Assembly: GCF_020165855.1 (NCBI RefSeq)
Contig: NZ_JAIUFY010000005.1
Location: 1-64,000, forward strand
Direction of reading: 5' to 3'
DNA: 64,000 bases
Origin: Celeribacter litoreus
GTDB lineage: Bacteria; Pseudomonadota; Alphaproteobacteria; Rhodobacterales; Rhodobacteraceae
Part shown: positions 1,044 to 20,688 of the stretch, in pieces
Numbering within the stretch: the stretch's first letter is position 1
Layout of the letters: every line of letters begins with the position of its first letter
Translations under genes and position numbers: made by a program
Notes under the pieces: generated by a model
Seen by the model: the letters and a program-made list of their open reading frames with translations, nothing else
What the model was told of the DNA's origin: nothing
The model's database searches: none

Positions 1044-1060
1044 TCGGATTTCCCCGATCA

Positions 1061-1089: not shown

Positions 1090-1104
1090 TAGGGAGGCCA
1101 AGCG

Positions 1105-2826: not shown

Positions 2827-2843
2827 CTGACAGGAGAGACACA

Positions 2844-6300: not shown

Positions 6301-6478
6301 AGTTTTCGACCGCGTCGGCAGTCGCGCCCGAATAGCTCGCGGAGATGCGGACAGTCGTTGGGGCGATGTCCGGATATTGGGAGACGGGAAGTTGTGTGAA
6401 GGCGAAGGCTCCGGCGAGTGCCGTGACGATGGCCAGCACCCAAGCGAAGACGGGGCGGTGGATGAAAAAGCGCACCAT
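3374..6478 (-). CDS. HAE1-type RND multidrug efflux permease
   Basis: Inner-membrane proton-driven drug exporter of 1034 residues, close to AcrB length. It starts MVRFFIHRPVFAWV, typical of the family; 17 more residues upstream (from 6529) lie inside the preceding gene and are discarded. The proton-relay pair D406-D407 is in LLVDDAIVVVENVER, and the second-half relay lysine is in GLAAKNAILIVEF. Two large periplasmic loops (about 30-335 and 560-870) separate the two membrane halves. It begins 4 bases after its adaptor gene, so the two form one operon. No outer-membrane channel or regulator gene lies beside it; it probably borrows a TolC encoded elsewhere. Confidence 0.95.
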   Translation of the reverse strand: MVRFFIHRPVFAWVLAIVTALAGAFAFTQLPVSQYPDIAPTTVRISASYSGATADAVENSVTSVMEDALTGLDGVLYMQSTSRESSSSISLVFGESVDPVDAQNEVQSKISQVESQLPDTVQSSGVRVSRSTSSILMIGAIVSTDGSYSTVELGNIMENQVSGPVQRTEGVGGINSFGSGYAMRIWLDPLRLAQYNLTPADVTSAVQAQNSTVSVGTLGAQPVVTGQQFTATITAQSQLTSVAEFENILLTTEEDGSTVLLGDVADIEIGQESYGSDARFNGENASGFGVNLATGANAVDTAQAVRATLSELEASLPEGVEFAYAYDTSPFVELSIEKVYHTLIEAVALVFLVILVFLQKWRATIIPIIAVPVVLAGTFAVLAVLGYSINTLTMFAMVLAIGLLVDDAIVVVENVERTIEDEGLAPLPATEKSMSEITGALVGIALVLSAVFLPMAFFGGSTGVIYRQFSVTIISAMALSALVALILTPALCATILKPSKENEGIAPARWFNRNFDRANNAYTSGVSRILKKPVLMLGVLLALVLGAWGLYSKLPSSFLPQEDQGVLMVMVNLSEGSTTPQTQQVVEQVENYLLNEESDAVETTFATLGFGFGGSGQNTAMIFVKLKDFDEREDDNLSASSIAGRATAKFAGLRAGSVMFMQPPAIQGLGNTSGFSMQLVDYASNGVEALRAAAEELETIADADGRFQNINVSGTENEAVLKLIIDQQKAESFGVSVSEVNSILSTIFAGRSVNDFDLNGSLRPVIVMADAAYRMQPEDIESWYARNTSGEMVPFSSFVTTEWVSNAPSLSRMDAISSIEISGSPASGVSSGEAMDAIQELAESLDGGYGVAWTGLSYQERQSGNQAPYLYALSVLVVFLCLAALYESWSIPFSVMLAVPVGVFGALLFAWLFDQSNDVYFKVGILTTIGLAAKNAILIVEFAKDLEEKGRKTVDAAIEAARLRLRPILMTSLAFMLGVLPLATATGAGAKAQNAIGFGVLGGMATATFIGIFLVPAFYVLVRYVADKNARRAS

Positions 6479-6482
6479 GGTC

Positions 6483-7640
6483 TTATTCGCTTTCCGCGGT
6501 CTCGGCGTCTTCGACAACGCCTTCGGCATTGATGATCACCGGAACCGTCGTGATCTCTGCACCGTCTCGGAGGTTCGAGAGGCCTTCGAGAATGACCTGA
6601 TCACCTGCCTCAATCCCATCGGTTACGATCCATGCGTTCTGGTAGCTGCCGCTGTAGGTCAGCGTAACTTGCTCTGCCTTGCCGTCCTGCGCGACAAAGG
6701 CTGTCAACGTGCCGTCTGACTGACGGGTCGTGGCGCGTTGCGGAACGAGGATGGCTTGGGTCGTTCCGAGCGTGATGTCCACGCGGAGGAATTGGCCGGG
6801 CAGGATCATGCGGTCGGGATTGGGGAATTCGAAGCGCAGATCAATGGTGCCTGTGGTGGTGGAGACAGTCACACCTGGCGTGACCAGCGTCCCCTTTTCC
6901 ACCGAAACGTCGCCATTTTCGAGCGTGAGTTCGACATCCAATTCCTCACCCGGTGACAGGCTGCCGTCGGAGAAAAGCTCTCGAATCCGCATACGGCGCG
7001 CAGAACTTTCGGAAACATCGACATAGATTGGGTCGAGGCGGGTAACGGTGGTGAGGGTGTCGCTCTGGTTCGCGGTGACAAGAGAGCCAACCGAGAATTG
7101 CGCAACGTCGGGAATGCCGGTGATCGGGCTGGTGATGTCGACACGCGCCAGATTAAGTTGAGCGGTCTGGAGGGAGGCTTCCGCGCTTTTCACCTCTGCT
7201 TTCGCTTGTGCAAGCGTGGCGCGGGCGGCTTCGAGTTCGGACGTCGAAGCCCCGACACCTTCGAGTTTGGCGTAACGATCATAGCTCGCCTGCGCGGTGC
7301 TGAGGCCGGCCTCTGCGCTGTCGCGCGCGGCCTCGGCGGAGGCGAGGGCTGCCTCGTAAGTCTCGGAATCGAGGCGGAACAGGACGTCACCACTCGAAAC
7401 CGGTCGCCCGGGCGTATAAACGATCTCTTCGATCAACCCTTCGACGCGGGGACGGATTTCCGTTTCCTCATAGGCCACTGCACGACCGGGCAGCGTAATT
7501 GTGAAGGGCACATCGGCGACACTGACCTCCATCACACCGACTTCGGTGGGACCTGAGTTCATTCCGGGAAAGCCCTGAGAAAAAACGGGTTGTCCTGCGG
7601 TGGCGGCGAGCAGTGCCGCGAGTGCAATCATTTTGCGCAT
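6483..7640 (-). CDS. RND efflux periplasmic adaptor (membrane fusion protein, AcrA/MexA-like)
   Basis: A 385-residue periplasmic adaptor that links the RND pump to an outer-membrane channel. Residues 1-21 form a signal peptide ending near VFSQG; no lipobox cysteine is present, so it is not obviously a lipoprotein like AcrA. A split lipoyl domain (GLIEEIVYTPGRPVSSGDVLF and ITSPITGIPDVAQ) brackets an alanine-rich coiled-coil hairpin at about 97-165, then beta-barrel and membrane-proximal domains. AAAGGA lies upstream of the ATG. First gene of the pump operon. Confidence 0.93.
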   Translation of the reverse strand: MRKMIALAALLAATAGQPVFSQGFPGMNSGPTEVGVMEVSVADVPFTITLPGRAVAYEETEIRPRVEGLIEEIVYTPGRPVSSGDVLFRLDSETYEAALASAEAARDSAEAGLSTAQASYDRYAKLEGVGASTSELEAARATLAQAKAEVKSAEASLQTAQLNLARVDITSPITGIPDVAQFSVGSLVTANQSDTLTTVTRLDPIYVDVSESSARRMRIRELFSDGSLSPGEELDVELTLENGDVSVEKGTLVTPGVTVSTTTGTIDLRFEFPNPDRMILPGQFLRVDITLGTTQAILVPQRATTRQSDGTLTAFVAQDGKAEQVTLTYSGSYQNAWIVTDGIEAGDQVILEGLSNLRDGAEITTVPVIINAEGVVEDAETAESE

Positions 7641-7750
7641 GTCGTGTCCTTTGTCCCTGTGCGTTTCAGAGAGGCCGTGCGTTGAGACCTTTGAGGTTGA
7701 ACGCGCATGTGCCGCACTTCAGTCTGGGCGATTTTCGCAACTGGACTGTG

Positions 7751-7782
7751 TAGAAAAAGCCGTGATGCGGGGGCACCACGGC
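7751..7782 (-). terminator. Terminator for the YqjD/YqjE-like operon
   Basis: On the minus strand the stem GCCGTG/CACGGC is followed by TTTTTCT. It lies 30-60 bases beyond the stop of the YqjE-like gene, in the 171-base gap before the pump operon. The rest of this gap should hold the pump promoter, but I cannot mark it. Confidence 0.6.
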
Positions 7783-7811
7783 TATCATACCCCCAGTCGG
7801 GCAAATTTACT

Positions 7812-8138
7812 TTATTTGCGGACATGCCCTCGCGCGGAGTATCCGGCGCCAAGCCCTTCTAGAAACGCCTGAGAAACGAGGCCCATCGGGCTCGGTTGCT
7901 CCGGCGGCGGGGCCGGTTGTCGTTTCACGCGCGTGGCGGCCAAAGTCAGCAATGCCGCACCTGTGTAGACACACCCGATGATCAAGGCTGCGTTTGCAGT
8001 GCCCTGTAGGTCAACGAGCAAAATCCACGCCGCGAGGGTGAGGAACCCCAATCCGATGATCAACAGCAACCCGCCAGCCAGACCAAGAGTGGTCCGTCGT
8101 GCGAGATCTTGCGCTTTCTCTGCAAGAGGAATGCCCAT
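7812..8138 (-). CDS. YqjE-like / phage-holin-family small membrane protein
   Basis: A 108-residue protein with two hydrophobic helices (about 19-40 and 48-67) between a basic amphipathic N-terminus and a proline-rich linker. The layout fits the Actinobacterial holin-X/YqjE group of inner-membrane proteins of unknown function; nothing here suggests a lytic phage role. It starts 2 bases after the YqjD-like gene, copying the yqjD-yqjE pairing seen in many proteobacteria. The divergent EcfG-type promoter upstream of the pair puts it in the general stress regulon. Confidence 0.7.
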   Translation of the reverse strand: MGIPLAEKAQDLARRTTLGLAGGLLLIIGLGFLTLAAWILLVDLQGTANAALIIGCVYTGAALLTLAATRVKRQPAPPPEQPSPMGLVSQAFLEGLGAGYSARGHVRK

Positions 8139-8140
8139 CG

Positions 8141-8461
8141 TTATTTCCGGTTCGCGAGAAGCCCAACAACAAAACCTGCAGCCGCAGCGATACCCATGGC
8201 CGCAGCGGGGTTCTCGCGGACTTTGTCTTCGGTCTTGTGATATGTGTCTTCGGCTTTCTCAGCCGCTTTCTCGGCACCCTCAGTCGCTCGCGCCTGAAGT
8301 TGGTGCACTTTGTTGCGCATGTTGTCGGAAATCTCGCTTCCCTTGGCCTCGCCAACGCCTTTGAGCGTTTGGGTCAGGGCGTGGATGTCTGCCTTCAAAA
8401 CATCCATTTCCTTACGCAGGTCATCGAGGGTCGGCTCAGTCTTTTTAGCAGCTTGTGCCAT
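8141..8461 (-). CDS. YqjD/ElaB-like DUF883 family protein
   Basis: A 106-residue protein: a long charged coiled-coil region (about 10-80) rich in Ala, Glu and Lys, then ENPAAAMG and one C-terminal hydrophobic helix ending GLLANRK. This is the signature of DUF883 proteins such as YqjD and ElaB, which are tail-anchored in the inner membrane and bind ribosomes in stationary phase in E. coli; that role is known for the family, not shown here. AAAGGAG precedes the ATG. Transcription is probably from the EcfG-like promoter at 8491-8515. Confidence 0.82.
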   Translation of the reverse strand: MAQAAKKTEPTLDDLRKEMDVLKADIHALTQTLKGVGEAKGSEISDNMRNKVHQLQARATEGAEKAAEKAEDTYHKTEDKVRENPAAAMGIAAAAGFVVGLLANRK

Positions 8462-8490
8462 TAGAAATCTCCTTTGTCTGTTACCGATTC

Positions 8491-8515
8491 AACGGGCTCA
8501 GAGAGGGATTGTTCC
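8491..8515 (-). promoter_or_regulatory. EcfG-type (general stress) promoter for the YqjD/YqjE pair
   Basis: On the minus strand GGAAC (8515-8511), 16 bases, then CGTT (8494-8491). This matches the alphaproteobacterial EcfG consensus GGAAC-N16/17-CGTT. It lies 30 bases before the YqjD-like start. Confidence 0.75.
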
Positions 8516-8537
8516 AAATTATTTCGAACTTGTTTTT

Positions 8538-8564
8538 GGAACCAGACGTGGAGCGCGCACGTTT
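8538..8564 (+). promoter_or_regulatory. EcfG-type (general stress) promoter for the DUF1328 gene
   Basis: GGAAC (8538-8542), 17 bases, CGTTT (8560-8564). It lies 52 bases before the DUF1328 start and 22 bases from the oppositely facing EcfG promoter. It may also transcribe dps further downstream. Confidence 0.75.
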
Positions 8565-8616
8565 TCTTGGTGAACGCGTCGATGATGGCGCACCCCAATT
8601 TTGAAAGGAGATTACC

Positions 8617-8790
8617 ATGCTTGGTTGGGCTCTTACATTCTTCGTTGTCGCTTTGATTGCGGCTGTTTTCGGCTTTGGCGGGATCGCCTCCGCATCTGCG
8701 GGCGTCGCTCAAATCCTGTTCTTCCTGTTCCTGATTTTGTTCGTTGTTGCGGTCGTCGCTCGTGCAGTTCGTGGCAAGCCGCCGGTCTAA
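8617..8790 (+). CDS. DUF1328 (YtjA-like) small membrane protein
   Basis: A 57-residue protein, [20 protein letters not shown] at the N-terminus, then [12 protein letters not shown] and a second hydrophobic helix ending [11 protein letters not shown]. This two-helix arrangement with a small-residue linker is the DUF1328/YtjA family, whose function is unknown. AAAGGAG sits 7 bases before the ATG. An EcfG-type promoter lies directly upstream, so it is probably stress-induced. Confidence 0.9.
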
Positions 8791-8842
8791 TCACCGAGCG
8801 CTCGAGCAACTCATATTGGAATGAAATAGAAGGAGAAATCTC

Positions 8843-9340
8843 ATGGCACATGCTCTCAAAATGCTGTCCGATACAGAGCCGCATTCTGTCGCGGACGAAA
8901 GCGTCCAGAACGTAGCCTCCGGTCTGGAGAAGGTGTTGTCCGACACCTACAGCCTCTTAATCAAAACGCACGTCTACCACTGGAACGTGACGGGTCCGTT
9001 GTTTCATTCGCTCCATACGTTGACCGAAGAGCAGTATCAGGACCTGTTCGCTGCGACAGACACGCTCGCCGAACGTATCCGTGCGCTGGGCCATCTCGCC
9101 CCGAATGCGTTTAAAGATGTTGTTGAAAGCAAGGCGATCGGCGAACCGTCGAACAAACCGTCAGCGGCAGAGATGATTGAAGAGCTCGCGACAGATCACG
9201 ACCGGATCGCGCGTCGGCTCGTCGCTCTGACCAAGATCTCGGAAGAGGCGAATGATCCGGTGTCGGCAGACCTTGCAACCACACGTGCTGCCTTTCACCA
9301 GAAAGCGTCTTGGATGTTGCGCTCGATGATCCAGAGCTAA
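8843..9340 (+). CDS. dps: Dps-family ferritin-like DNA protection protein
   Basis: A 165-residue dodecamer-forming miniferritin that oxidises and stores iron with peroxide and protects DNA. The inter-subunit ferroxidase ligands are visible: H46 in YHWNVTG, H58, D73 and E77 in DTLAERI, at spacings identical to E. coli Dps (H51, H63, D78, E82). The position of E. coli D67 is E62 here, a conservative change. AGGAG lies 8 bases before the ATG. It follows the DUF1328 gene by 52 bases with no terminator between, so it can be read from the EcfG-type promoter at 8538, which fits its stress role. Confidence 0.92.
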   Translation: MAHALKMLSDTEPHSVADESVQNVASGLEKVLSDTYSLLIKTHVYHWNVTGPLFHSLHTLTEEQYQDLFAATDTLAERIRALGHLAPNAFKDVVESKAIGEPSNKPSAAEMIEELATDHDRIARRLVALTKISEEANDPVSADLATTRAAFHQKASWMLRSMIQS

Positions 9341-9359
9341 GATTTCTGATCTACCCAGA

Positions 9360-9395
9360 AAAAACGCCCGCCGAAAACTCGGCGGGCGTTTTTTG
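9360..9395. terminator. Bidirectional terminator between dps and phyR
   Basis: A 16-base arm AAAAAACGCCCGCCGA pairs with TCGGCGGGCGTTTTTT around a 4-base loop. The A and T runs on each side let it stop both the rightward dps and the leftward phyR transcripts. Confidence 0.9.
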
Positions 9396-9410
9396 TCTCA
9401 TGTGGAACGG

Positions 9411-10217
9411 TTAGGCGACGGCTTCGGAGCTTGCGAAGAACATGGCCTGGCTCACAGCAGAGCGCACCTGTTGCTCGGTGTAGGGCTTCGTGATGACGAA
9501 GGCCGGTTCCGGACGCTCACCGGTGAGAAGGCGTTCCGGGAACGCAGTGATGAAGATCACCGGCATGTCTCCGGTCGTTTTCAGGATGTCGTTCACAGCA
9601 TCGATACCGGAGGAACCGTCTGCGAGCTGAATGTCGGACAGAATGAGGTCCGGCTGATCTTTCTTTGCGAGTTCGACAGCATCAGATGCGATGCGTGCAA
9701 CACCGGTGATCTGATGACCCATCTCTGCCACGATGTCCTGCAGGTCGAGCGCGATGATGGTTTCGTCCTCAATGATCATGATGCGGCCAGAGACGCTATC
9801 AACCATCTCTTTCGTTGCGATATTGAGAAGTTTCTCAACTTCTTCTGGGGTCTCGTCGATGATGAACCCGATTTCAGCAACAGAGAATTCTTCGATGGTG
9901 TTGAGCAGAAGCACTTCGCGTGTATTCGGCGTCAGGCGTGCCAGATGCTGTTGAGCACGCTCGGCCAATCCGGTTTCACTCTCGCCTACCGGGGCACCTG
10001 CACTGGACCAAATCACGTGGAAGGCACGGAAAAGAGAGCATTTTTCGGATTGGCCCATTTCAAAAACGCCACGGTCACTCAGAAGCGCCTCAAGGGTCGC
10101 TGCGGCATACATATCGCCGCTTTGCTGGTTCCCTGTGAGGGCGCGGGCGTAGCGACGCAGGTAGGGGAGAAGCGAAGCAACCTTGACGGAAAGCATGGTC
10201 GAATGATCGTCTGACAT
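9411..10217 (-). CDS. phyR: PhyR general stress response anti-anti-sigma response regulator
   Basis: A 268-residue protein with the inverted layout unique to PhyR: an ECF-sigma-like domain (about 8-135) followed by a receiver domain (about 144-262). The receiver has acidic E150-D151, phospho-acceptor D195 in LILSDIQLADG, a FITAFPE segment of the FATGUY type and the ITKPY lysine. When phosphorylated, the sigma-like part binds NepR and frees EcfG; this is established for the family. It is divergent from nepR-ecfG across 103 bases that carry a mirror-image EcfG promoter, so it should be induced by its own output. Confidence 0.96.
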   Translation of the reverse strand: MSDDHSTMLSVKVASLLPYLRRYARALTGNQQSGDMYAAATLEALLSDRGVFEMGQSEKCSLFRAFHVIWSSAGAPVGESETGLAERAQQHLARLTPNTREVLLLNTIEEFSVAEIGFIIDETPEEVEKLLNIATKEMVDSVSGRIMIIEDETIIALDLQDIVAEMGHQITGVARIASDAVELAKKDQPDLILSDIQLADGSSGIDAVNDILKTTGDMPVIFITAFPERLLTGERPEPAFVITKPYTEQQVRSAVSQAMFFASSEAVA

Positions 10218-10241
10218 ATGTGGTGTCCACTTTTTTGAATT

Positions 10242-10284
10242 TTCTTGGAACCAAACGCAGCATCTTGGCGTTTGGTTCCAAGAA
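10242..10284. promoter_or_regulatory. Mirror-image EcfG promoter pair shared by phyR and nepR-ecfG
   Basis: A perfect inverted repeat with 17-base arms TTCTTGGAACCAAACGC and its complement around a 9-base spacer. Each strand reads GGAAC-N17-CGTT, because the -10 element of one promoter is nested beside the -35 of the other. The plus-strand copy is GGAAC 10247-10251 with CGTT at 10269-10272; the minus-strand copy is GGAAC 10279-10275 with CGTT at 10257-10254. Both transcripts would therefore be autoregulated by EcfG from one site. Confidence 0.85.
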
Positions 10285-10320
10285 AAGTGAAATTAACAGG
10301 ATTGGGCGAAGGGTGCCTCA

Positions 10321-10464
10321 ATGAAAGATAACGAAAAGGCGAAGCGCGAGCAGCAGATTGATGAAAATTTGCGGCGTGTCTATCAAAAGGTCGTCGAAGA
10401 AGATGTGCCCGACCGGTTCAAAGAACTTCTGGAGCAGTTGCGTGCCCAGGAGACCAGCCAATGA
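10321..10464 (+). CDS. nepR: NepR anti-sigma factor
   Basis: A 47-residue acidic helical protein. The core QIDENLRRVYQKVVEEDVPD is the NepR family signature: a first helix, a short linker and a second helix that together clamp the sigma factor. It inhibits EcfG until phosphorylated PhyR captures it. GAAGGG lies upstream of the ATG. The stop overlaps the EcfG start as ATGA, which gives tight translational coupling and a fixed ratio of anti-sigma to sigma. The plus-strand half of the mirror promoter lies 48 bases upstream. Confidence 0.93.
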   Translation: MKDNEKAKREQQIDENLRRVYQKVVEEDVPDRFKELLEQLRAQETSQ

Positions 10465-11042
10465 GTGAACCGGAAACAGCACCGCGTGACCCGCGCGAGG
10501 AAATCGTCGAACACTTGCGCCCGATGCGCGCGTTCGCAATGAGTTTGACGCGAAATTCCGCCGCAGCCGACGATCTCGTTCAAGACGCCATTATGAAAGC
10601 ATGGCAGAACATCGAAAAGTTCGAAGCTGGCACCAACATGCGTGCGTGGCTCTTCACGATCCTGCGCAACACCTTCTATTCCAATCGTCGCAAAGCGAAG
10701 CGCGAGGTGGCCGATGTCGATGGTGCGATGGCGGCAACGCTGTCAGAAAAGCCTGCGCATGACGGTCGACTCGCTATGAAGGATTTTGAGAAAGCATTCG
10801 CGCAATTGCCCGATGAGCAGCGTGAAGCTCTCATCCTTGTCGGGGCTTCCGGCTTTACCTATGAAGAAGCAGCTATCACCTGTGGCGTCGCCGTGGGCAC
10901 CATCAAAAGCCGCGTCAATCGCGGACGAAACACGCTCTGCGAAATGCTGGATCTGAAAGATGACGAGACGATGGAAATGACAGACCGCGCGACGATGGCC
11001 GTTGTGTTTGAAATGACACCGCCTCAACGTTTTTCCAGCTAA
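10461..11042 (+). CDS. ecfG: EcfG general stress sigma factor (ECF15 group)
   Basis: A 193-residue ECF sigma factor. Region 2 is seen in NSAAADDLVQDAIMKAWQ, which contacts the -10 element. Region 4 has LPDEQREALILVGASGFTYEEAA and the recognition helix GVAVGTIKSRVNRGR. The short acidic N-terminus and the pairing with NepR identify it as EcfG. It should read the GGAAC-N16/17-CGTT promoters seen here at 8491, 8538 and 10242. It overlaps nepR by 4 bases, and the sensor kinase starts 12 bases after it. Confidence 0.95.
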   Translation: MSEPETAPRDPREEIVEHLRPMRAFAMSLTRNSAAADDLVQDAIMKAWQNIEKFEAGTNMRAWLFTILRNTFYSNRRKAKREVADVDGAMAATLSEKPAHDGRLAMKDFEKAFAQLPDEQREALILVGASGFTYEEAAITCGVAVGTIKSRVNRGRNTLCEMLDLKDDETMEMTDRATMAVVFEMTPPQRFSS

Positions 11043-11054
11043 ACGTCATCCTGA

Positions 11055-12791
11055 ATGCCGAACCAGAGATACCAAATGCGCGGCCTCGGGGCAAAGATTG
11101 CTTCCATGCTGGCGATCGCCCTGTTGCCGATCGGTTTGATCGCGATGCTTCAAAACGTCGAATTGGCGCGCGAGGCAAATCGGCGAGACGAAGCCAACCT
11201 TATTTCGAGGACCTCCTCCATTGCTGCAGAGCAAGAGGACCTGTTGCAGCGCGCAGTCGGCGCTGCGCAGGTGATCGGGACAATGGCGCCCACTCTGAGC
11301 ATCTCTCAGAGCTATTGCGAGCGCACGCTGCAGGGGTATCTCGCCGAGGCACAGGTGTTCACGTTCGCGGGTTTCGTGGATGCCGAGGGACATCTGAATT
11401 GCACATCGAATGGCGCAGATGTCGATATTTCCGCACTCGATAGCTACCAGCAAATGCGTGACGCGCCGCGCATTCGCGCGCGGCTTTTGACGAGGTCTCC
11501 GGCGGCCCCGACGATTGACAGTCCTGAAATCTTGCTTTCAGTTCCCGTTCTCCGGAATGGCAATTACGATGGTCATTCTTCGATCACCTTCCGGCAGGAC
11601 CTGTTTCTGTCTCGCCTTCTGGAAGACGAGGCGTCGGATCATCCGAACGAAATCGTGATCTTCAATGCTGACGGGGACATTCTGGCGTCGGATCTCGGAA
11701 TGGATGGGATCGAAGATCGGCTGCCGCTGTATCGACCTCTGGAGATGCTCGCGTCTGACGGTGAGCAGGTCTTCCGTGGTCGCTCGCGCGCGAAAGATGA
11801 CGAAGTCTTCTCCGTCGTGAGTATGATCCCCGGGGCAATTTATGCTCTGGCGATCTGGACGCCGCCGACCGCTAAATGGATTGCGATTCTCAAATCATTC
11901 GCGGCCCCTTTGCTCTTCCCCGTCATCATGTGGGGCGGCTCGCTCCTCGTGGCCTACTTTGCCGTGGAACGTCTTGTGATCCGGCCCATTCGCCATCTGC
12001 GCGCGCGGATGCTTGTGTTCATGCGGTCCCGAACTGTCGGAGAATCCTCCCTCGATCGCCATACGCCAGCAGAGCTACTGGATATGGAAGAAACCTGGAA
12101 CCGGCTGACTGAAAGCGTGCTTCATGACGAGGCCGAGCTCGAAGACATGGTGCGTGAGAAAGCTGTGCTGCTCAAAGAGGTGCACCACCGAGTCAAAAAC
12201 AACCTTCAACTCATTTCGTCCATGCTCGGGCTTCGCTTGAGAAAGGCAAAGTCCGAGGACGCGAAGGCCGCATTGAAGGATATTCAGGGGCGGGTGATGA
12301 GTCTTGCGACAGTGCACCAGAGTCTGTCGCAGACCTCTGAGCAAAGCGGCGTCGCCGCCCGCGATCTGACCCGCGCCATTGTGCAGAACGTGATCGCTGC
12401 CAGCAGAACGCAAGAAATGAGTTTCCAGGTTGAGGAAGACTATGAAACTTTCTTCCTGTTCCCGGATCAGGCGGTGCCGCTCTCCCTGATCGTTTCCGAG
12501 GGGTTGACCAATGCGATCAAGTATATCGGCTACTCCGCCGAGGGCATCGCGCGTCTCAAAATTTCGCTGCGCGAAGAGGACGAAGGTCTGGCTGTGCTCG
12601 AGATCGCCAATACCGTTGGCGAGCGATTGGTGAATGAAGAGGTGAGTGAGGGCACGGGGATGGGGAGCCGGTTCATTGGCGGCTTTGTGTCCCAACTCGG
12701 CGGCCGCATCGAAGTCGATGAGGCGGACGGGTGGTATAAGCTCCGAGTGCATTTCCCGATTGCCGAATTCGACGAAGCCGCCGGTCTCTAA
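11055..12791 (+). CDS. Membrane sensor histidine kinase, HWE/HisKA_2 family, probable PhyR kinase
   Basis: A 578-residue sensor. One membrane helix (about 15-32) and a second (about 277-305) enclose an extracytoplasmic sensing domain of roughly 240 residues containing two cysteines (SYCERT, LNCTS). A HAMP-like segment follows. The phosphorylation motif EVHHRVKNNLQL places the phospho-histidine at H378, and the HATPase part has EGLTNAIKY and GTGMGSRFIGGF. HWE/HisKA_2 kinases next to phyR usually phosphorylate PhyR; position 12 bases after ecfG supports that here. The cysteines could make a redox-sensitive disulfide, but that is only a guess. Confidence 0.9.
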   Translation: MPNQRYQMRGLGAKIASMLAIALLPIGLIAMLQNVELAREANRRDEANLISRTSSIAAEQEDLLQRAVGAAQVIGTMAPTLSISQSYCERTLQGYLAEAQVFTFAGFVDAEGHLNCTSNGADVDISALDSYQQMRDAPRIRARLLTRSPAAPTIDSPEILLSVPVLRNGNYDGHSSITFRQDLFLSRLLEDEASDHPNEIVIFNADGDILASDLGMDGIEDRLPLYRPLEMLASDGEQVFRGRSRAKDDEVFSVVSMIPGAIYALAIWTPPTAKWIAILKSFAAPLLFPVIMWGGSLLVAYFAVERLVIRPIRHLRARMLVFMRSRTVGESSLDRHTPAELLDMEETWNRLTESVLHDEAELEDMVREKAVLLKEVHHRVKNNLQLISSMLGLRLRKAKSEDAKAALKDIQGRVMSLATVHQSLSQTSEQSGVAARDLTRAIVQNVIAASRTQEMSFQVEEDYETFFLFPDQAVPLSLIVSEGLTNAIKYIGYSAEGIARLKISLREEDEGLAVLEIANTVGERLVNEEVSEGTGMGSRFIGGFVSQLGGRIEVDEADGWYKLRVHFPIAEFDEAAGL

Positions 12792-12937
12792 TTCATTCGG
12801 CGCGCGTGCTGAAAAAATCACCGTGCCGAATGCGAATTTAAGCCGTAAGATTGGTCTGAGCGCGATTTCGCGTGAAGCGCACACGCGGCCTTTATAGGCT
12901 TGAATGGAAATGAAGAACTCAGGGCGGTAACCGGCCA

Positions 12938-15900
12938 ATGGCGATTTACGCATCTATCCATCACGTCACCCATTACAAATACGACCGTAATATTGAACTA
13001 GGCCCACAGATTGTCCGTCTACGGCCCGCACCGCACTCGCGCACACGCGTCATTTCACATTCCCTAAAGGTCACGCCAGAGGGGCACTTCGTAAATCACC
13101 AGCAGGACCCCTATGGCAATTGGCAGGCGCGCTTTGTGTTCCCTGAGCCAGTCCGGGAGTTCAAGATTGAGGTCGACCTCGTCGCCGATATGACGGTCTA
13201 CAACCCCTTCGACTTCTTCGTCGAAGAGAGCGCCGAACATTGGCCTTTCGAGTATCCCGAAGAGATCAAGGAAGACCTGTCGATCTACCGTACGCCGGAA
13301 CCCGAGGGGCCGCTCCTCGCTCAGTTCGTGGGCCAGATTGATTTTACAGAGACGCGGACGGTCGATTTTCTCGTCGGATTGAACTCCAAGATCTCGGATT
13401 TCGTGGACTACACCATCCGCATGGAGCCGGGTGTTCAGACGCCGGATGAGACCCTGCAGCTGAAATCCGGCTCTTGCCGTGATAGCTCTTGGTTGCTCGT
13501 TCAGGTGCTCCGCCATCTTGGCTTCGCGGCACGGTTCGTCTCCGGCTATCTTATCCAGTTGAAGCCTGATCTTGAGGCGCTCGATGGTCCGTCGGGCACG
13601 GATCATGATTTCACCGACTTGCACGCATGGTGTGAGGTCTTCCTCCCGGGCGCGGGTTGGATTGGGCTCGACCCGACTTCGGGTCTGCTCACTGGGGAGA
13701 GCCACATCCCTCTCGCGGCCACGCCGCATTATCAAAACGCGGCTCCGATTTCCGGCGGCTATTCGTCGGTCGGCACGCCGCAAGTGACCTTTGACTTTGA
13801 TATGCAGATCAAACGCGTCGCAGAGCATCCGCGGATCACAAAGCCGTTCTCTGAAGAGTCTTGGGACCGCCTTAACGCGTTGGGCAAGAAGGTTGATGAG
13901 GCTCTAACTGAGGGGGATGTGCGCCTGACGATGGGCGGTGAGCCGACATTTGTGTCCATCGATGATTTCGAGAGTGACGAATGGAACACCGCTGCCGTCG
14001 GTCCGCAAAAACGTGCACTGGCCGATGATCTGATCCGTCGCCTTCGTGATCGCTTCGCGCCCGGCGGCTTCCTGCATTACGGTCAAGGCAAATGGTATCC
14101 TGGGGAGAGTCTTCCGCGGTGGACTTTCTCTCTCTATTGGCGCCATGACGGGAAACCTGTTTGGAGAAATCCGGACCTGATTGCCAAGGAAGACACGCCT
14201 GCTCCTGCCAACGCCGAGGATGCTGGTGCGTTCATGACGAAATTTGCCGAGAACCTCGGCGTCGATCCGATTTGCGCACAGCCCGCCTATGAGGATCCCG
14301 GTGAGTGGATTCTGAAAGAGGCGCTCTTGCCGGACAATGTTTCGCCGGAGAATTCGAAGCTCAAAAACCCTGAAGATCGTGCACGTTATGCCCGCGTGTT
14401 CGAACGCGGGCTTACGGAGCCGTCGGGGTATGTCCTGCCCATCCAGCGCTGGCAGTCAAAAGCCGGGTCGCGCTGGCTTTCTGAGGTTTGGAAAACCCGT
14501 CGCGGTCATCTATTCCTCGTCCCCGGGGATAGCCCGGTTGGTTTCCGTCTTCCGTTGGGCGCCCTGCCACATATTCCGCCTGCGTCCTTCCCCTATTCCT
14601 ATCCGGCCGATCCGATGATCGACCATGCGCCTTTGCCTGATTTCCACGCGGAAATTTCTGAGCGCCGCAAGAAAATCGAAGAGGAAATCGCACGCCTTGC
14701 TGCGGAGGAGGCTGCGGCAGAAGCAAAAGAGGCAAAAGAAAAAGCAGACATTCTGCCAGAAGTATCAAAAGAGCATACTCAGCCGGTATCCGAGGGGCAG
14801 CGCGATGAGACAGAGCGACAGGTCCTTATCGGGCAGGGGATTGATCCCTCCAAAAGTGAGGTGCGAACAGCCATCGCGATTGAGCCGCGCGATGGTCGCC
14901 TGTGTCTCTTTATGCCACCCTGTGAGGCGCTCGAAGATTATCTTGAGCTTTTGACTGCGGCGGAAGAAACCGCTGCCGAGCTAGGTCTTCCAATCCACGT
15001 AGAGGGCTATTCGCCACCTGAAGACCCGCGTTTGAACGTGATCCGCGTCGCCCCCGACCCTGGTGTGATCGAAGTGAACATTCACCCCTCGCACAGCTGG
15101 GACGACTGTGTTGCGACGACCGAAGCGATTTATGAAGAGGCGCGTCAATCGCGTCTCGGGGCGGACAAGTTTATGATCGACGGTCGACACACCGGCACCG
15201 GCGGCGGCAACCACGTCGTTGTGGGTGGCGCGACTCCGTCAGATTCTCCGTTCTTGCGCCGTCCTGACCTGCTCAAGTCGCTGATCCTGATCTGGCAACG
15301 CCACCCGTCGCTGTCCTATCTGTTCTCAGGTCTTTTCATCGGGCCGACGTCCCAGGCGCCACGGATCGACGAAGCGCGGCACGATACGCTCTATGAGCTT
15401 GAGATTGCACTTTCTCAGATCAAGCCGCCGACTGAAGGCAGTGTGCCGCCGGCTTGGCTCGTGGACCGTTTGTTGCGGAATATGCTGACCGACGTGACAG
15501 GCAACACGCACCGCGCAGAGATTTGTATCGACAAACTCTTCTCGCCGGATGGTCCGACAGGGCGTCTCGGCCTCGTGGAATTCCGTGGTTTCGAGATGCC
15601 GCCCGACCCGCGCATGAGCCTCGCCCAACAGCTTCTCCTCCGCGCCATCATCGCGCGGTGTTGGAACGCGCCGGTCGAAGGCAAGCCGGTGCGCTGGGGC
15701 ACGGTGCTGCACGACCGCTTTATGCTGCCTCATTACCTCTGGGAAGACCTACTGTCGCTGCTCGCGGACCTCAAACACCACGGGTTCGAGATGGATCCGG
15801 AGTGGTTCAAGGCTCAGGCCGAATTCCGGTTCCCGTTCTGTGGTCAGATCGAAGCAGAGGGTGTGCACCTCGAGGTGCGTCAGGCGTTGGAGCCGTGGCA

Positions 15901-16381
15901 TGTGCTCGGCGAGACCGGCGCGATTGGTGGCACGGTTCGCTACACAGATAGCTCGGTCGAGCGTCTGCAGGTGAAGATGACGACGCTACATCAGGATCGT
16001 TATCGGATCATGTGCAACCGCCGTCCTGTGCCGCTGGCAAAGACCCAAGCTTCGGGTGTGTCTGTCGCAGGAGTCAGGTTCAAAGCATGGCAGCCGCCAG
16101 AAGCTTTGCACCCCGTTCTACCCGTCAATGCGCCGTTGCATTTCGACATCTACGACGATTGGACGGGTCGCGCGATTGCCGGCTGCACTTATCATGTTGC
16201 GCATCCCGGGGGGCGGAACTACGACACGTTCCCAGTCAATGGAAACGAAGCGGAAGCGCGGCGACTGGCGCGGTTTGAGCCAAACGGTCATAGCCCTGGG
16301 GCCTACACGGCCGCCACAGAGGTGCCGCATCCCGAGTTTCCTTTGACGCTTGACCTGAGACGTCCCATCGGGCTCGTTTAA
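12938..16381 (+). CDS. Transglutaminase-like protein fused to DUF2126 putative amidoligase
   Basis: An 1147-residue protein. Residues 1-90 are a transglutaminase N-terminal beta domain; about 150-260 is the papain-like core with C180 in SGSCRDSSW, H229 in LHAWCEVF and D245 in GLDPTSG. A charged Ala/Glu/Lys coiled linker (about 565-610) leads to the DUF2126 region (about 640-1130), a predicted glutamine-synthetase-like amidoligase with HTGTGGGNHVVVGG and EFRGFEMPPDPRMS motifs. There is no signal peptide, so it should act in the cytoplasm. It is first in a cluster with ATP-grasp/alpha-E and a second transglutaminase, predicted from comparative genomics to build or trim peptide tags. The substrate is unknown. 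Confidence 0.88.
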   Translation: MAIYASIHHVTHYKYDRNIELGPQIVRLRPAPHSRTRVISHSLKVTPEGHFVNHQQDPYGNWQARFVFPEPVREFKIEVDLVADMTVYNPFDFFVEESAEHWPFEYPEEIKEDLSIYRTPEPEGPLLAQFVGQIDFTETRTVDFLVGLNSKISDFVDYTIRMEPGVQTPDETLQLKSGSCRDSSWLLVQVLRHLGFAARFVSGYLIQLKPDLEALDGPSGTDHDFTDLHAWCEVFLPGAGWIGLDPTSGLLTGESHIPLAATPHYQNAAPISGGYSSVGTPQVTFDFDMQIKRVAEHPRITKPFSEESWDRLNALGKKVDEALTEGDVRLTMGGEPTFVSIDDFESDEWNTAAVGPQKRALADDLIRRLRDRFAPGGFLHYGQGKWYPGESLPRWTFSLYWRHDGKPVWRNPDLIAKEDTPAPANAEDAGAFMTKFAENLGVDPICAQPAYEDPGEWILKEALLPDNVSPENSKLKNPEDRARYARVFERGLTEPSGYVLPIQRWQSKAGSRWLSEVWKTRRGHLFLVPGDSPVGFRLPLGALPHIPPASFPYSYPADPMIDHAPLPDFHAEISERRKKIEEEIARLAAEEAAAEAKEAKEKADILPEVSKEHTQPVSEGQRDETERQVLIGQGIDPSKSEVRTAIAIEPRDGRLCLFMPPCEALEDYLELLTAAEETAAELGLPIHVEGYSPPEDPRLNVIRVAPDPGVIEVNIHPSHSWDDCVATTEAIYEEARQSRLGADKFMIDGRHTGTGGGNHVVVGGATPSDSPFLRRPDLLKSLILIWQRHPSLSYLFSGLFIGPTSQAPRIDEARHDTLYELEIALSQIKPPTEGSVPPAWLVDRLLRNMLTDVTGNTHRAEICIDKLFSPDGPTGRLGLVEFRGFEMPPDPRMSLAQQLLLRAIIARCWNAPVEGKPVRWGTVLHDRFMLPHYLWEDLLSLLADLKHHGFEMDPEWFKAQAEFRFPFCGQIEAEGVHLEVRQALEPWHVLGETGAIGGTVRYTDSSVERLQVKMTTLHQDRYRIMCNRRPVPLAKTQASGVSVAGVRFKAWQPPEALHPVLPVNAPLHFDIYDDWTGRAIAGCTYHVAHPGGRNYDTFPVNGNEAEARRLARFEPNGHSPGAYTAATEVPHPEFPLTLDLRRPIGLV

Positions 16382-16422
16382 ATCAGTGCGCATCATGCGC
16401 AAGCCAAGGACCGCAGCCACCG

Positions 16423-18834
16423 ATGTCTCAAGCGCAGCCAGAGGCCATGGATATTCTCGCTCGTTATCAACGCCTTCCGGGGGTTGCTGACGAGCTGTTT
16501 GATCCAGCGGGACATATGCGTCCCGTATGGCGTCGGTTTGTTGCGCGCTTTTTGCGTTTGTCGTCGGATGATATTCGGGCGAGGTTTGAGCGCGGGGATC
16601 AGTATCTTCGGGATGCGGGCGTGTTTTATCGCCAATATTCCAACGATCCGCTCGCAGAACGGGATTGGCCGCTGAGCCATATTCCTGTGATCCTCCACGA
16701 GCAGGAGTGGGACCAAATTTGCGCGGGTCTCACCCAGCGCGCGAATTTGTTGGAACAGGTCATGGCCGATCTCTATGGCCCTGCGAGACTTGTCGCAGAT
16801 GGACATCTGCCTGCGGAGTTGATCGCACGCTCGGAGCAGTGGCTGCGGCCAATGGTCGGGGTGCCTCCGCGCGGCGGGCATTATCTGCACTTTCTGGCCT
16901 TCGAGATCGGGCGTTCTCCGGATGGCACCTGGTTCGTTGTCGGGGATCGGACACAGGCCCCGTCGGGTGCTGGTTTCGCGCTTGAAAACCGGATGGCGAC
17001 AGGGCGCATCTTTCCGGAACGCTTTCCGCGCGCACACATCCACAAGCTTGCGGGCTTTTTCGGGACGTTCCGCGATGCGATGGAGGATTTGGCGTCCCCG
17101 TCCTACAAACGTCCCAAAGTCAGTGCGATCCTGACACCGGGCCCCTCGAACGACACCTATTACGAACACACATATATCGCCCGCTACCTCGGGATGATGC
17201 TCCTCGAAGGGGAGGACATTGTTGTCGAAAACGGTGAGGCGATGGTGCGCACCATCGAAGGGTTGCAGCCTTTGGGGATGTTGTGGCGCCGTATTGATGC
17301 GACTTTCGGCGATCCTCTGGAATTCGACGAAAACTCGCACATTGGTGCGCCGGGCCTGATGGATGCGGTGAGGTCGGGAGAGTTGGGGCTAGCGAACGCA
17401 TTCGGCTCCGGCATTCTGGAATCTCGAGCGATGATGGCGTTCCTGCCGCGCGTGGCCGAGGTTCTGACCGGCGGGCCTCTGATGATCCCGAACATCGCGA
17501 CATGGTGGTGCGGCGGAGAGGCCGAACGCGCCTATGTACGTGAGAATGTCGAGAATATGCTGATCGGACCCGCGGATGCTGTGAACCTGCCGTTTGACCT
17601 TGATTCAAGCACAGCGCTTGGCGGGAAGTTTATGGGCGACGCCAAGGAAAGCATTTCCGACTGGCTCGAACGCGAAGGTGATCGTCTCGTGGGACAGGAG
17701 GCTGTGACGCTTTCGACGACGCCCGCTTGGGAAGATACCGAAGACGGTGGTCAGGTCGTTCCGCGTCCGATGACCGTTCGCGTGTTCGCGGCTCGCACCG
17801 CAACGGGTTGGCAGTTCATGAAGGGCGGTTATGCGCGGATTGGTCGGTCCAACGATGCGACAGCGCTCGCGATGCAAAGCGGTGGTTCCGTTGCTGACGT
17901 CTGGATCGTCGCCGACAAACCGCTCCCGAAAGTGGTTTCGCGGACGGACGAGCCGGATAATTATCGACGGACCAGTCCGGGCACTTTGCCCGCACGCGCG
18001 GCAGATAACCTTTATTGGCTCGGGCGCTATGTTGAGCGCACCGAAGATGCGGTGCGTCTGATCAGAGCCTATCACTTGCGTCTCGCCGCGACGGATAATC
18101 GCAACGATGTGCGCCTCAAGACACTCTACGCTTACATGGAAGGGTTCGGCTTTGATTTGAACGAAACCTTTCCGACCACGTTGATCCAGCGAATTCAAGC
18201 TACGCTGGCCTGTGCGTCCAAGGTGCGGGACCGGTTTTCGACCGACGGGATGCTGGCGCTGAAAGATTTGCTGAAGACCGCGAAACGGATGCAGGAGACG
18301 GTGCAGCCAGGAGATGACTGCGCGCGTGCGATGTCCGTGTTGATCCGGAAGATGGCGGGGATCAGCGGTCTCGTGCACGAAAATATGTATCGCTCGGCGG
18401 GATGGCGTTTTCTGAGCTTTGGGCGTGCGCTTGAGCGTGCCGATGCCGTTGCGGCGGTCCTTGCGGAATTTGCCGATCCGGATGCGCCGGAGGGGTCGCT
18501 CGACCTCGCGGTGGAGGTTGGGGACTCAATCATCACTCACCAACGGCGGTATCGTGTTGAGACGAGCCGCAATGCGGTTGTCGACCTTCTTGCGCTGGAT
18601 GCGGACAACCCGCGTGGGCTGTTGTTCTTGATCCGTCAGTTGGGAATTCATGGCGCGGCTTTGCCGGATGCGGAGCGTGACGGCCGGCCGTCGGACGTGA
18701 TGAAGGCAATCCTGCCGCTTGAGACCGAATTGGCCTGTGCGACGCCGGAGGAGCTCACAAGCGAGCGCATTCTTTCGATCCGTTCTGATCTGGGCCGGAT
18801 TTCGGACCTTCTGACGACGGTCTACCTGAGGTGA
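16423..18834 (+). CDS. Circularly permuted ATP-grasp protein fused to alpha-E domain
   Basis: An 803-residue fusion. The first half (about 10-490) is the circularly permuted type 2 ATP-grasp (DUF404/DUF407) domain, recognisable by GVPPRGGHYLHF, TPGPSNDTYYEHTYIARYLG and PNIATWWCGGE. The second half (about 525-800) is the helical alpha-E (DUF403) domain starting at LPARAADNLYWLGRYVERTED. In many genomes these are two genes; here they are one. ATP-grasp enzymes form amide bonds through acyl phosphates, so peptide-bond formation with the neighbouring amidoligase is a reasonable inference. It begins 41 bases after the first transglutaminase gene and ends 3 bases before the next. Confidence 0.9.
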   Translation: MSQAQPEAMDILARYQRLPGVADELFDPAGHMRPVWRRFVARFLRLSSDDIRARFERGDQYLRDAGVFYRQYSNDPLAERDWPLSHIPVILHEQEWDQICAGLTQRANLLEQVMADLYGPARLVADGHLPAELIARSEQWLRPMVGVPPRGGHYLHFLAFEIGRSPDGTWFVVGDRTQAPSGAGFALENRMATGRIFPERFPRAHIHKLAGFFGTFRDAMEDLASPSYKRPKVSAILTPGPSNDTYYEHTYIARYLGMMLLEGEDIVVENGEAMVRTIEGLQPLGMLWRRIDATFGDPLEFDENSHIGAPGLMDAVRSGELGLANAFGSGILESRAMMAFLPRVAEVLTGGPLMIPNIATWWCGGEAERAYVRENVENMLIGPADAVNLPFDLDSSTALGGKFMGDAKESISDWLEREGDRLVGQEAVTLSTTPAWEDTEDGGQVVPRPMTVRVFAARTATGWQFMKGGYARIGRSNDATALAMQSGGSVADVWIVADKPLPKVVSRTDEPDNYRRTSPGTLPARAADNLYWLGRYVERTEDAVRLIRAYHLRLAATDNRNDVRLKTLYAYMEGFGFDLNETFPTTLIQRIQATLACASKVRDRFSTDGMLALKDLLKTAKRMQETVQPGDDCARAMSVLIRKMAGISGLVHENMYRSAGWRFLSFGRALERADAVAAVLAEFADPDAPEGSLDLAVEVGDSIITHQRRYRVETSRNAVVDLLALDADNPRGLLFLIRQLGIHGAALPDAERDGRPSDVMKAILPLETELACATPEELTSERILSIRSDLGRISDLLTTVYLR

Positions 18835-18837
18835 CGC

Positions 18838-19734
18838 ATGCTCTATGATCTCGGATTGACCATCACCTACAGTTACGCGAGCCCATCGGATCGGGCGCGA
18901 ACGATCCTGCGTCTTCTGCCCGCGAATGTCCCTGGCGTTCAAACCGTGCGGCAGCGGCTACTCGAGATTATGCCTTTGCCGGAAGAGCGTCGCGACGGGC
19001 GGGACTTTTTCGGAAATGAGACGAGTATGGTCGCGTGGCATTCGCCGATTTCGGAACTGTCGCTCAAAGTAACGGCTCAGGTCGAACGCTTTGAACCCGC
19101 GCCACTTTTCGACTTTTCGCCGCCTTTGGAGCAGTTGCCGCAGGAGTTGGCGGGGCTTCAGTCCCTTGATCCGGAAGCGCCGCACCATTTCCGCTGCGCC
19201 TCACCGCGGGTTTCGACGTTCGACGAAATTACAGCCTACGCGAAAGAGTGCCTGACGGATGGTGTGACGGTGCTCGGGGCGATTGAGGCCGTCGGGCGGG
19301 CGCTTCATAAGGACATGAAGTTCGACGCGGAGGCCACGGATGTGGATACGCCGCTACAGGATGCGTTTGAGAAACGTCACGGCGTCTGTCAGGATTTTGC
19401 GCATATCATGATCTCTGCTCTGCGCGGGATCGGCATTCCTGCCGCCTATGCGTCGGGCTTTCTCCGCACCTTTGCGCCGCCGGGGCAGCCGCGTCTCGAA
19501 GGGGCCGATGCGATGCACGCGTGGGTGCGGGCGTGGGCCGGCAATCAAATGGGCTGGGTGGAGTTTGACCCCACCAACGACCAGTTCGCCGGTGGGGACT
19601 ATATCACGATCGGTTATGGTCGCGATTATGGAGATGTTGCGCCGGTGCGCGGCGCGATGCGGTCTTCGGGAGAGCACACCACGACCCAAGCCGTCGATGT
19701 GATCCCCCATGAGGACGCAGTCGCCTCAGACTGA
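18838..19734 (+). CDS. Stand-alone transglutaminase-like cysteine peptidase
   Basis: A 298-residue protein with an N-terminal beta domain (1-100, starting MLYDLGLTITYSYASPSDRAR) and a papain-like core. The triad is C184 in HGVCQDFAH, H227 in AMHAWVRAW and D244 in VEFDPTN. There is no signal peptide. Bacterial members mostly act as peptidases or amidases rather than cross-linkers. Three bases separate it from the ATP-grasp/alpha-E gene, so it is in the same operon. Its stop region overlaps the convergent glutathione transferase gene by 9 bases. In other genomes a proteasome-like Anbu gene often joins this set; none is in this window. Confidence 0.88.
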   Translation: MLYDLGLTITYSYASPSDRARTILRLLPANVPGVQTVRQRLLEIMPLPEERRDGRDFFGNETSMVAWHSPISELSLKVTAQVERFEPAPLFDFSPPLEQLPQELAGLQSLDPEAPHHFRCASPRVSTFDEITAYAKECLTDGVTVLGAIEAVGRALHKDMKFDAEATDVDTPLQDAFEKRHGVCQDFAHIMISALRGIGIPAAYASGFLRTFAPPGQPRLEGADAMHAWVRAWAGNQMGWVEFDPTNDQFAGGDYITIGYGRDYGDVAPVRGAMRSSGEHTTTQAVDVIPHEDAVASD

Positions 19735-20688
19735 GGCCAGAAGCTCATCGATGTGAGCTGGGCCGACCGGACGGATGCGGGTCGGGTTCAGCGACTTGAT
19801 CGAGTAATATCCGCGCGTGATGTGATCCATGTTCACGGTTTCTGCGACGCCTGGGAGGCGGAAGATGCGCTCCATGTAAGCAGACAGACGCGGGTAATCA
19901 GCGATCTGTTTCAGGTTACATTTGAAGATGCCGTGATAGGCAGCGTCAAAGCGGATGAGCGTGACGAAAGTCCGGATGTCCGTTTCTGTAATCCGGTCGC
20001 CGAAGAGGTAATCGCCGGTGAGGCGCTCTTCCAACATATCGAGCGTTTCGAAGACGCCTTGGACGGCCTCATCATAGGCTTCCTGCGACGACGCGAATCC
20101 GGCTTTGTAAACGCCGTTGTTCAGGTTGTCGTAGATCACCGGGTTCAGGGCGTCGATTTCAGACGCAAGATCGTCTGGATAGAGACGCGGTGTCGGTGGG
20201 ACGATCTCGTCAAACGCCGTGTCGAACATGCGCACGATGTCGGCGCTCTCGTTGTTCACGAGCGTATTGGTTTTCATATCCCACAGAACCGGCACCGTCG
20301 CACGACCGGACACGTGCGGGTCAGCTCGCGTGTAAAGTTCGTGCATATACTCGGAGCCAAAGAGCGGGTCCGCATCGGCACCGTCATATCCACCGAAGGC
20401 CCAGCCCTGATCTGTTAGCGTCGGATTGACGACGGTCACAGGGATGATGTCTTCGAGGCCTTTGAGCTTGCGTGCGATGAGCGTGCGCGAGGCCCAAGGG
20501 CAGATGAGAGCGACGTAGAGGCGGTAGCGTCCGGCTTCGGCTTTGAAGCCTGCTTCTCCGGTCGGCCCAGCCGAGCCGTCCGGAGTGATCCAGTTACGGA
20601 AGCTTGAAACCTGCCGAACGAAACGGCCTTTTTTGTCGGCTTTTTGAACCGGGTCCCAGCTTTTGGCCCATTTTCCGTCAACAAGCAT
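19726..20688 (-). CDS. Glutathionyl-hydroquinone reductase (Xi-class GST, YqjG/ECM4-like)
   Basis: A 320-residue cytosolic enzyme that reduces glutathionylated hydroquinones. The catalytic cysteine is in ALICPWASRT, the CPWA motif that separates this class from ordinary GSTs. It is longer than normal GSTs, as the class requires, and shows VNNESADIVRMF for glutathione binding and a helical C-terminal domain. The start at 20688 (MLVDGKWAKSW) has GAGGA upstream; the 21 residues ahead of it in the open frame are not family-like. Last gene of a probable four-gene operon, 10 bases after the YgiD-like dioxygenase. Confidence 0.93.
   Translation of the reverse strand: MLVDGKWAKSWDPVQKADKKGRFVRQVSSFRNWITPDGSAGPTGEAGFKAEAGRYRLYVALICPWASRTLIARKLKGLEDIIPVTVVNPTLTDQGWAFGGYDGADADPLFGSEYMHELYTRADPHVSGRATVPVLWDMKTNTLVNNESADIVRMFDTAFDEIVPPTPRLYPDDLASEIDALNPVIYDNLNNGVYKAGFASSQEAYDEAVQGVFETLDMLEERLTGDYLFGDRITETDIRTFVTLIRFDAAYHGIFKCNLKQIADYPRLSAYMERIFRLPGVAETVNMDHITRGYYSIKSLNPTRIRPVGPAHIDELLASV

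Follow-up and report, generated by a model that had tools for sequence, protein, structure and literature searches.

Introduction

In 2009, Iyer et al. reportedly proposed a peptide-tagging system composed of ATP-grasp enzymes, ligases resembling glutamine synthetase (GS), Alpha-E proteins and the peptidase Anbu. The tagging proposal is quoted in later work (PMC6376114, PMC5666114). The ATP-grasp/Alpha-E/Anbu system is widespread, and we found no function assigned to it since the proposal was made. Here, we analysed a member of this system in Celeribacter litoreus (assembly GCF_020165855.1), a cluster of three genes termed P1, P2 and P3 that lies within positions 1 to 64,000 of contig NZ_JAIUFY010000005.1. 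This whole stretch of 64,000 nucleotides is referred to below as the window.

Several reports connect genes of this kind with nitrogen supply. In Burkholderia cenocepacia, I35_5080-5083 showed −6.0- to −9.4-fold changes in an ntrC mutant (PMC5491218). Genes of the Pseudomonas putida Anbu operon PP_2685-2688 rise under nitrogen limitation, although one table lists PP_2685 (Anbu) itself with only 1.12 in its first column (PMC7801951, PMC3325844), and the PP_2688 promoter, used as a nitrogen sensor, gave a 3.7-fold response (PMC8050072). A predicted sigma-54 regulon includes the Anbu family (PMC12316311), and an association of these domains with urea metabolism has been described for marine metagenomes (PMC3597751). 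The passages of nitrogen-regulator papers on M. smegmatis (PMC3662644) and Caulobacter (PMC10274813) held no pointer to the system in the terms searched.

Results

A conserved operon of the DUF2126 type

Contig C8 of the 3.66 Mb genome begins with the window. P1 (12938–16381, forward strand) encodes 1147 residues, in which the Pfam domains Bact_transglu_N and Transglut_core are fused to DUF2126 (residues 282–1141, approximately 13781–16360; 1323 bits); a predicted amidase or transamidase is thus joined to a predicted GS-like ligase. P2 (16423–18834, forward strand; 803 residues) fuses a circularly permuted ATP-grasp domain (CP_ATPgrasp_2, residues 88–473, approximately 16684–17841; 421 bits) to Alpha-E (residues 522–802, approximately 17986–18828; 170 bits) and is a predicted pseudo-ligase. 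P3 (18838–19734, forward strand; 298 residues) is a stand-alone transglutaminase-like protein with Bact_transglu_N and Transglut_core, again a predicted amidase or transamidase. The genes are separated by 41 bases (P1–P2) and 3 bases (P2–P3), and the initial annotation, made from the letters of the window alone, had correctly placed the start of the cluster 146 bases after a general stress kinase gene. Its three genes and their domain content were borne out by the open reading frames and Pfam matches, and with them its observation that amide-making folds stand beside amide-breaking ones.

The Cys-His-Asp triads that it had named in the two transglutaminases were found at those positions and are nearly invariant. 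C180/H229/D245 of P1 is kept in all 160 alignment rows (the window and 159 of 160 locus proteins, one protein of <900 residues being left out). In P3, C184 and H227 are kept in 147/147 rows (the window and 146 locus proteins) and D244 in 145/147, with one Cys and one gap. Across the 160 rows, 284 of the 1147 positions of P1 are at least 98% identical. Among named relatives, those that match P1 best come from species of Celeribacter, with best segments 88–92% identical.

Gene neighbourhoods were compared in two sets, 80 Rhodobacterales-centred P1 loci among the matches listed (L006–L085) and 80 hand-picked Pseudomonadota stretches (L146–L225). The latter came from 22 of the 29 genomes with DUF2126 in a class sample of 190 genomes and from 58 of the 102 such genomes in a phylum sample of 349. 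The order P1>P2>P3 was present in 75/80 and 60/80 loci, respectively; among the five exceptions in the first set, four (L023, L033, L054 and L059) end at a contig end and one (L083) is genuine. In the class sample, Alpha-E was present in 29/29 DUF2126 genomes versus 41/161 others. The co-occurrence of the three genes in related genomes, which the initial annotation had proposed to check, is strongly conserved, and the cluster is an ordinary member of a widespread known system, namely a DUF2126-type operon of the ATP-grasp/Alpha-E/Anbu system.

The fused ATP-grasp lacks the catalytic motifs of stand-alone relatives

To compare the two types of ATP-grasp, 148 fused proteins (P2 and 147 locus proteins) were aligned with 30 stand-alone ones (the paralogue encoded in the same genome and 29 locus proteins of 400–650 residues). 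The E-x-N motif was present in 0/148 fused versus 30/30 stand-alone proteins, and the Lys and GGxG loop in 1/148 versus 30/30. In P2, G174 and R176 occupy the positions of the E-x-N pair of the stand-alone paralogue, and the Lys/Gly-rich loop is gone; the paralogue, which is part of an Anbu operon, has both the pair and the loop intact. E-x-N also occurs, with almost identical spacing, in E. coli glutathionylspermidine synthetase/amidase (gss; D318, E330 and N332), residues which we take to be its metal ligands. E160/N162 were equated with gss E330/N332 on the common motif and spacing; a profile comparison of the stand-alone type with gss did not align.

The fold itself appears to be kept. The structure model of P2 has a mean predicted local distance difference test (pLDDT) score of 92.3, and its best fold match is 3n6x (E = 1.4e-27), followed by glutathione, glutathionylspermidine and trypanothione synthetases. 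D116, R190, E248, D265, D297 and N325 are invariant in both the fused and the stand-alone groups, and R453 is nearly so. Moreover, the residues that replace the motifs are themselves conserved among the fused proteins, with R at the R176 position in 137/148 and D at the D175 position in 136/148. Because of this conservation, together with the invariance of the other residues, P2 looks like a protein with a changed job rather than a decaying one. P2 is probably not a ligase; judged by its motifs, it is predicted to be a catalytically dead-looking pseudo-ligase. The initial annotation had counted it among the amide-making folds, without naming ATP-site residues for it, and had listed a loss of ATP-binding or triad residues as refuting; of these, metal and nucleotide motifs are what is missing, family-wide. 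A protein of Yersinia bercovieri releases phosphate from ATP (PMC6376114); since that protein belongs to an Anbu operon, the result is no argument for activity of P2.

DUF2126 is the likelier ligase

The structure model of DUF2126 had a mean pLDDT of 79.0. When it was compared with the PDB, the best 50 of 316 fold matches (E ≤ 10) were all glutamine synthetases or gamma-glutamylmethylamide synthetase, giving moderate support to a GS-like fold. In the 2009 proposal this type of domain is said to be a circularly permuted GS-like ligase, and the fold matches of the model agree. On these models, DUF2126 is likelier to be the ligase of the operon than P2.

A promoter palindrome shared with glnK-amtB

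Regions upstream of P1 were collected from the window and 78 of the 80 Rhodobacterales-centred loci, two loci without upstream sequence being left out (79 regions; 78 non-redundant in the dyad scan), with 371 regions that precede other genes of these loci as controls. The dyad scan returned pairs of the type GCC-N8/9-GGC. A spacing of 9 occurred in 43/79 P1 regions, versus 20.0 expected from the controls; at the remaining spacings between 3 and 17 the counts were 13–27/79. A 17-base symmetric matrix, TGCC-n-AAWWWTT-n-GGCA, was seeded with this dyad and trained on P1 upstream regions only. When the matrix was learned on half of the regions, it separated the held-out half from the controls (p ~3e-11 both ways). 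With the full matrix, 52/79 P1 regions scored above 8 bits, and 51 of these sites lay at −108 to −165. Consensus patterns for EcfG, sigma-54, sigma-32, enteric NtrC, CtrA and LexA were also searched for upstream of P1 (107 regions) and gave nothing consistent.

An independent test was provided by glnK-amtB, which was located through an amtB search in 27 genomes; tblastn found glnK in 29/30 loci, and regular expressions in 1 and 2 of 30. At a pass threshold of 12.3 bits, the score reached by 5% of controls, 24/27 glnK-amtB upstream regions from the same genomes (one per genome) passed, and 100 column-permuted matrices run on the glnK regions gave a mean of 1.9 passes and a maximum of 7. The half-sites TGC-N11-GCA without the AT-rich core were present in 31/79 P1 and 11/27 glnK regions and in 13% of controls. 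The plain string YGCC-N9-GGCR was weak at glnK (7/29), and the matrix was needed. glnK-amtB belongs to the core NtrC regulon (PMC5343134), and as it has the same box as P1, we infer that the palindrome most likely belongs to NtrC. NtrC-like regulators are encoded in the genome; the best of them scores 394 bits, below the model cut-off of 558.6, and a second one lies 2.5 kb on.

In the window, a degenerate match to the NtrC-like palindrome (12807–12823, forward strand) lies at the expected place, 131 bases before P1, and scores 8.3 bits. At the syntenic site C. baekdonensis reaches 14.8 bits; the score for C. neptunius is 7.7. Rhodobacter capsulatus (L017) has a strong P1 box of 20.1 bits about 115 bases upstream of the gene, and its glnK region (L233), at 11.3 bits, is among the three below the threshold. 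Among Anbu-operon upstream regions of other loci, L065 (21.9) and L075 (14.5) pass and L051 (7.8) fails.

Urea and other nitrogen genes near the operon

Urease genes stand beside P1 in 8/160 loci and urea-transporter genes in 7/160; on a rough estimate, chance alone would give about 0.5 urease loci, and those seen represent about five independent lineages. In L040, L057 and L064 the urease cluster runs directly into P1-P2-P3 in the same direction. Strong urease matches (E <1e-40) were present in 19/29 DUF2126 genomes versus 32/161 others, and a hand-counted control, isocitrate lyase (E < ~1e-40), gave 8/29 versus 29/161. Approximately 10 kb from the cluster, a nitrogen-source locus was seen at 147–3311 of the window (forward strand), where a formate/nitrite transporter, a PP2C-phosphatase/protein-kinase fusion and a cyanate hydratase follow in a row. 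Cyanase and nitrite transporter genes were not found beside P1 in the 160 loci. Two open reading frames at 3374–7640 (reverse strand) resemble, by eye, a resistance-nodulation-division efflux pump and its membrane fusion partner.

A second operon carries Anbu

The initial annotation had noted correctly that there is no Anbu gene in the window, and had proposed a search of the genome for an Anbu/HslV-like gene. That search located Anbu outside the cluster, in a second, four-gene operon about 670 kb away (C8 ~687.7–691.7 kb; 7733–11674 of the extracted stretch L005), which encodes an ATP-grasp (475 residues), Alpha-E (313), a transglutaminase (267) and Anbu (243). In the class sample, an Anbu match was present in 21/29 DUF2126 genomes versus 33/161 others. 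Because the remaining 8/29, some of them incomplete genomes, gave no Anbu match, Anbu is common with the DUF2126 operon but seems not to be required for it.

In the flanks of P1, stand-alone Alpha-E genes were present in 3/80 Rhodobacterales-centred and 26/80 hand-picked loci, and Anbu genes in 3/80 and 8/80. In L166, L179 and L188, P1 stands together with a stand-alone ATP-grasp, Alpha-E and Anbu, and a fused protein was not called. Because the two operons can adjoin or mix in other genomes, both were treated as one system. A zinc metallopeptidase gene was also recurrent near P1 (8/80 and 11/80 loci; immediate neighbour of P1 in 15/19), and both members scanned contain a Zn-ribbon and Peptidase_Mx. 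These loci are L011, L014, L019, L022, L026, L076, L081 and L083 together with 11 of L146–L225. The metallopeptidase may be a further component of the system. A Peptidase_Mx search of the present genome gave no match, and the same search matched in no control genome either.

The operon probably has its own promoter

Upstream of P1, the window contains PhyR-like, EcfG-like and kinase genes, and the initial annotation had considered a stress linkage possible. The window contains 13 EcfG-like sites (GGAAC-N15-18-CGTT) versus 2.6 expected, among them sites at 8491–8563, upstream of a dps-like gene, and at 10247–10279, between the phyR-like and ecfG-like genes. The same scan confirmed its report that the 146-base gap before P1 contains no such promoter. 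Elsewhere the linkage did not hold: in flanks of up to 8 kb, some shortened by contig ends, the phyR-ecfG-kinase genes were beside P1 in 0/80 loci.

In three other Celeribacter the upstream genes differ, yet blocks in the last 130 bases before P1 are common to all. One of these, a TTATAG block conserved in four Celeribacter upstream regions, includes a candidate −10 element at 12890–12900 (forward strand; CTTTATAGGCT). Because Celeribacter with different upstream genes still have these common blocks, the operon probably has its own promoter. A sigma-70 consensus scan of 12600–19900 found no site, and no strong terminator was found in the gap between the kinase gene and P1.

Discussion

The observation made in the initial annotation is confirmed, and its interpretation, the synthesis and removal of a peptide or amino-acid tag, is partly supported. 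The reading that we favour, tentatively and with a confidence a little short of even, is an amide-making and amide-breaking module for nitrogen starvation, with a GS-like DUF2126 ligase, a retooled P2 and NtrC control in many relatives. Such a module would be cytoplasmic and would, in many relatives, be switched on via NtrC at nitrogen shortage. DUF2126 of P1, with its predicted GS-like fold, would be an ATP-using ligase that makes the amide bond, and the transglutaminase domains of P1 and P3 would reverse or exchange that bond as papain-like amidases or transamidases. P2, as a retooled ATP-grasp without the usual ATP handling, may bind or present a substrate or partner proteins together with Alpha-E. 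The product would most likely be a small gamma-glutamyl- or peptide-type amide of an amine, not a protein tag.

Several observations weigh against this reading. The fold matches of DUF2126 are weak, with a best E of 1.9e-3, none ≤0.001 and low TM-scores, and the domain has neither a sequence match in the PDB nor another relevant Pfam match. Only 41/79 P1 regions pass the threshold of the palindrome matrix, though these regions trained it. The palindrome of the window itself is not significant, as 11% of controls score as high, and the site is not among the matches with up to 3 mismatches. The Anbu operon of this genome scores 11.2, below threshold (6.5% of controls). Of eight urease and urea-transporter upstream regions, two pass (L064 ureD, 16.4; L057 urtA, 13.8) and six fail, and the co-occurrence of urease is not significant within genomes that have Alpha-E (p = 0.15).

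Peptide tagging, in which the ligases would put a peptide or amino acid on proteins and the transglutaminases and Anbu would take the tag off again or degrade the protein that carries it, we regard as rather unlikely. It fits the Anbu operon in the same genome, the excess of Anbu in DUF2126 genomes (21/29 versus 33/161), and the peptidase genes beside P1 (Anbu in 11/160 loci, the zinc metallopeptidase in 19/160), and protein recycling would suit nitrogen shortage as well. However, eight of the 29 DUF2126 genomes lack an Anbu match, and the enzymes nearest in fold to each of the two ligase domains produce small-molecule amides. Moreover, according to passages of PMC6376114, neither a peptidase activity of Anbu nor a complex with the other operon proteins was detected. 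Lower still we place a module with two working ligases, in which P2 would be active through an unusual nucleotide site. The confidently predicted fold (pLDDT 92) and the conserved replacements at the R176 and D175 positions (R in 137/148, D in 136/148) speak for this, but nearly all fused proteins have lost the two metal ligands along with the lysine and the Gly-rich loop, all of which 30/30 stand-alone ones retain.

Least probable, and in our view very improbable, is a general-stress module that would be driven by the phyR-ecfG-kinase locus immediately before it. The kinase gene adjoins P1 here, EcfG-like sites lie near dps and between phyR and ecfG, and with no strong terminator found in the gap, read-through is possible in this genome. 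Nevertheless, the gap has no EcfG-like site, these genes are in the flanks (up to 8 kb) of 0/80 relatives' loci, and three other Celeribacter combine different upstream genes with common promoter blocks.

A bolder form of the nitrogen-starvation module can also be drawn, which we consider doubtful. Here, the fused ATP-grasp/Alpha-E proteins would be family-wide pseudo-ligases that have kept a glutathionylspermidine-synthetase-like substrate side, have lost the ATP side and present the substrate to DUF2126. Together with the Anbu operon they would form one NtrC-controlled proteobacterial pathway that handles amine nitrogen as peptide-like amides, to be released by Anbu and the transglutaminases.

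These results make the system testable: the proteins to assay are DUF2126 and the ATP-grasp of the stand-alone rather than the fused type, and nitrogen shortage is the condition. Rhodobacter capsulatus, with its 20.1-bit box at P1 (L017), is a convenient host for such tests.

Comparison with known systems

Neither a pseudo-ligase of the P2 type nor an NtrC box at DUF2126 operons of Rhodobacterales was found in the titles, abstracts and passages searched, and the 2009 family paper or a supplement may already note either. Within that scope, two findings are apparently new: fused ATP-grasps have lost their motifs across the family, and the operon has an NtrC-like box in common with glnK in many relatives.

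Pseudomonas RloABC and RimK/RimB likewise link an ATP-grasp, a transglutaminase-like protein and a protease genetically, although their transglutaminase is membrane-bound and inactive, their proteases are of the retropepsin type and the families are others, as described in passages of PMC12239564. The ATP-grasp synthetase of E. coli gss shares a related fold with P2, and gss, like P1, joins amide-making and amide-cutting domains; it differs in that the P1 ligase is GS-like, the P1 hydrolase is a transglutaminase and P2 lacks the E-x-N pair of gss. The solved structure closest to P2 by both sequence and fold is that of a putative glutathionylspermidine synthase of Methylobacillus flagellatus (3n6x), which is of the stand-alone type with intact motifs.

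In B. cenocepacia, the NtrC-dependent I35_5080-5083 bring together DUF404/407, DUF403, a transglutaminase and a large transglutaminase-like protein (PMC5491218), but the ATP-grasp and Alpha-E are separate genes there, and DUF2126 is a putative part of the large protein. The Anbu operons of P. putida (PP_2685-2688, with nitrogen-limited expression) and Yersinia bercovieri contain ATP-grasp, Alpha-E, transglutaminase and Anbu (PMC7801951, PMC8050072, PMC6376114), as does the Anbu operon of the present genome; they differ from the cluster in having no DUF2126 and a stand-alone ATP-grasp with its motifs intact. The system predicted in 2009 reportedly has these domains too and pairs genes for ligase, transglutaminase and Alpha-E in the same way, whereas in C. 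litoreus Anbu lies outside the cluster and the fused ATP-grasp is without its catalytic motifs.

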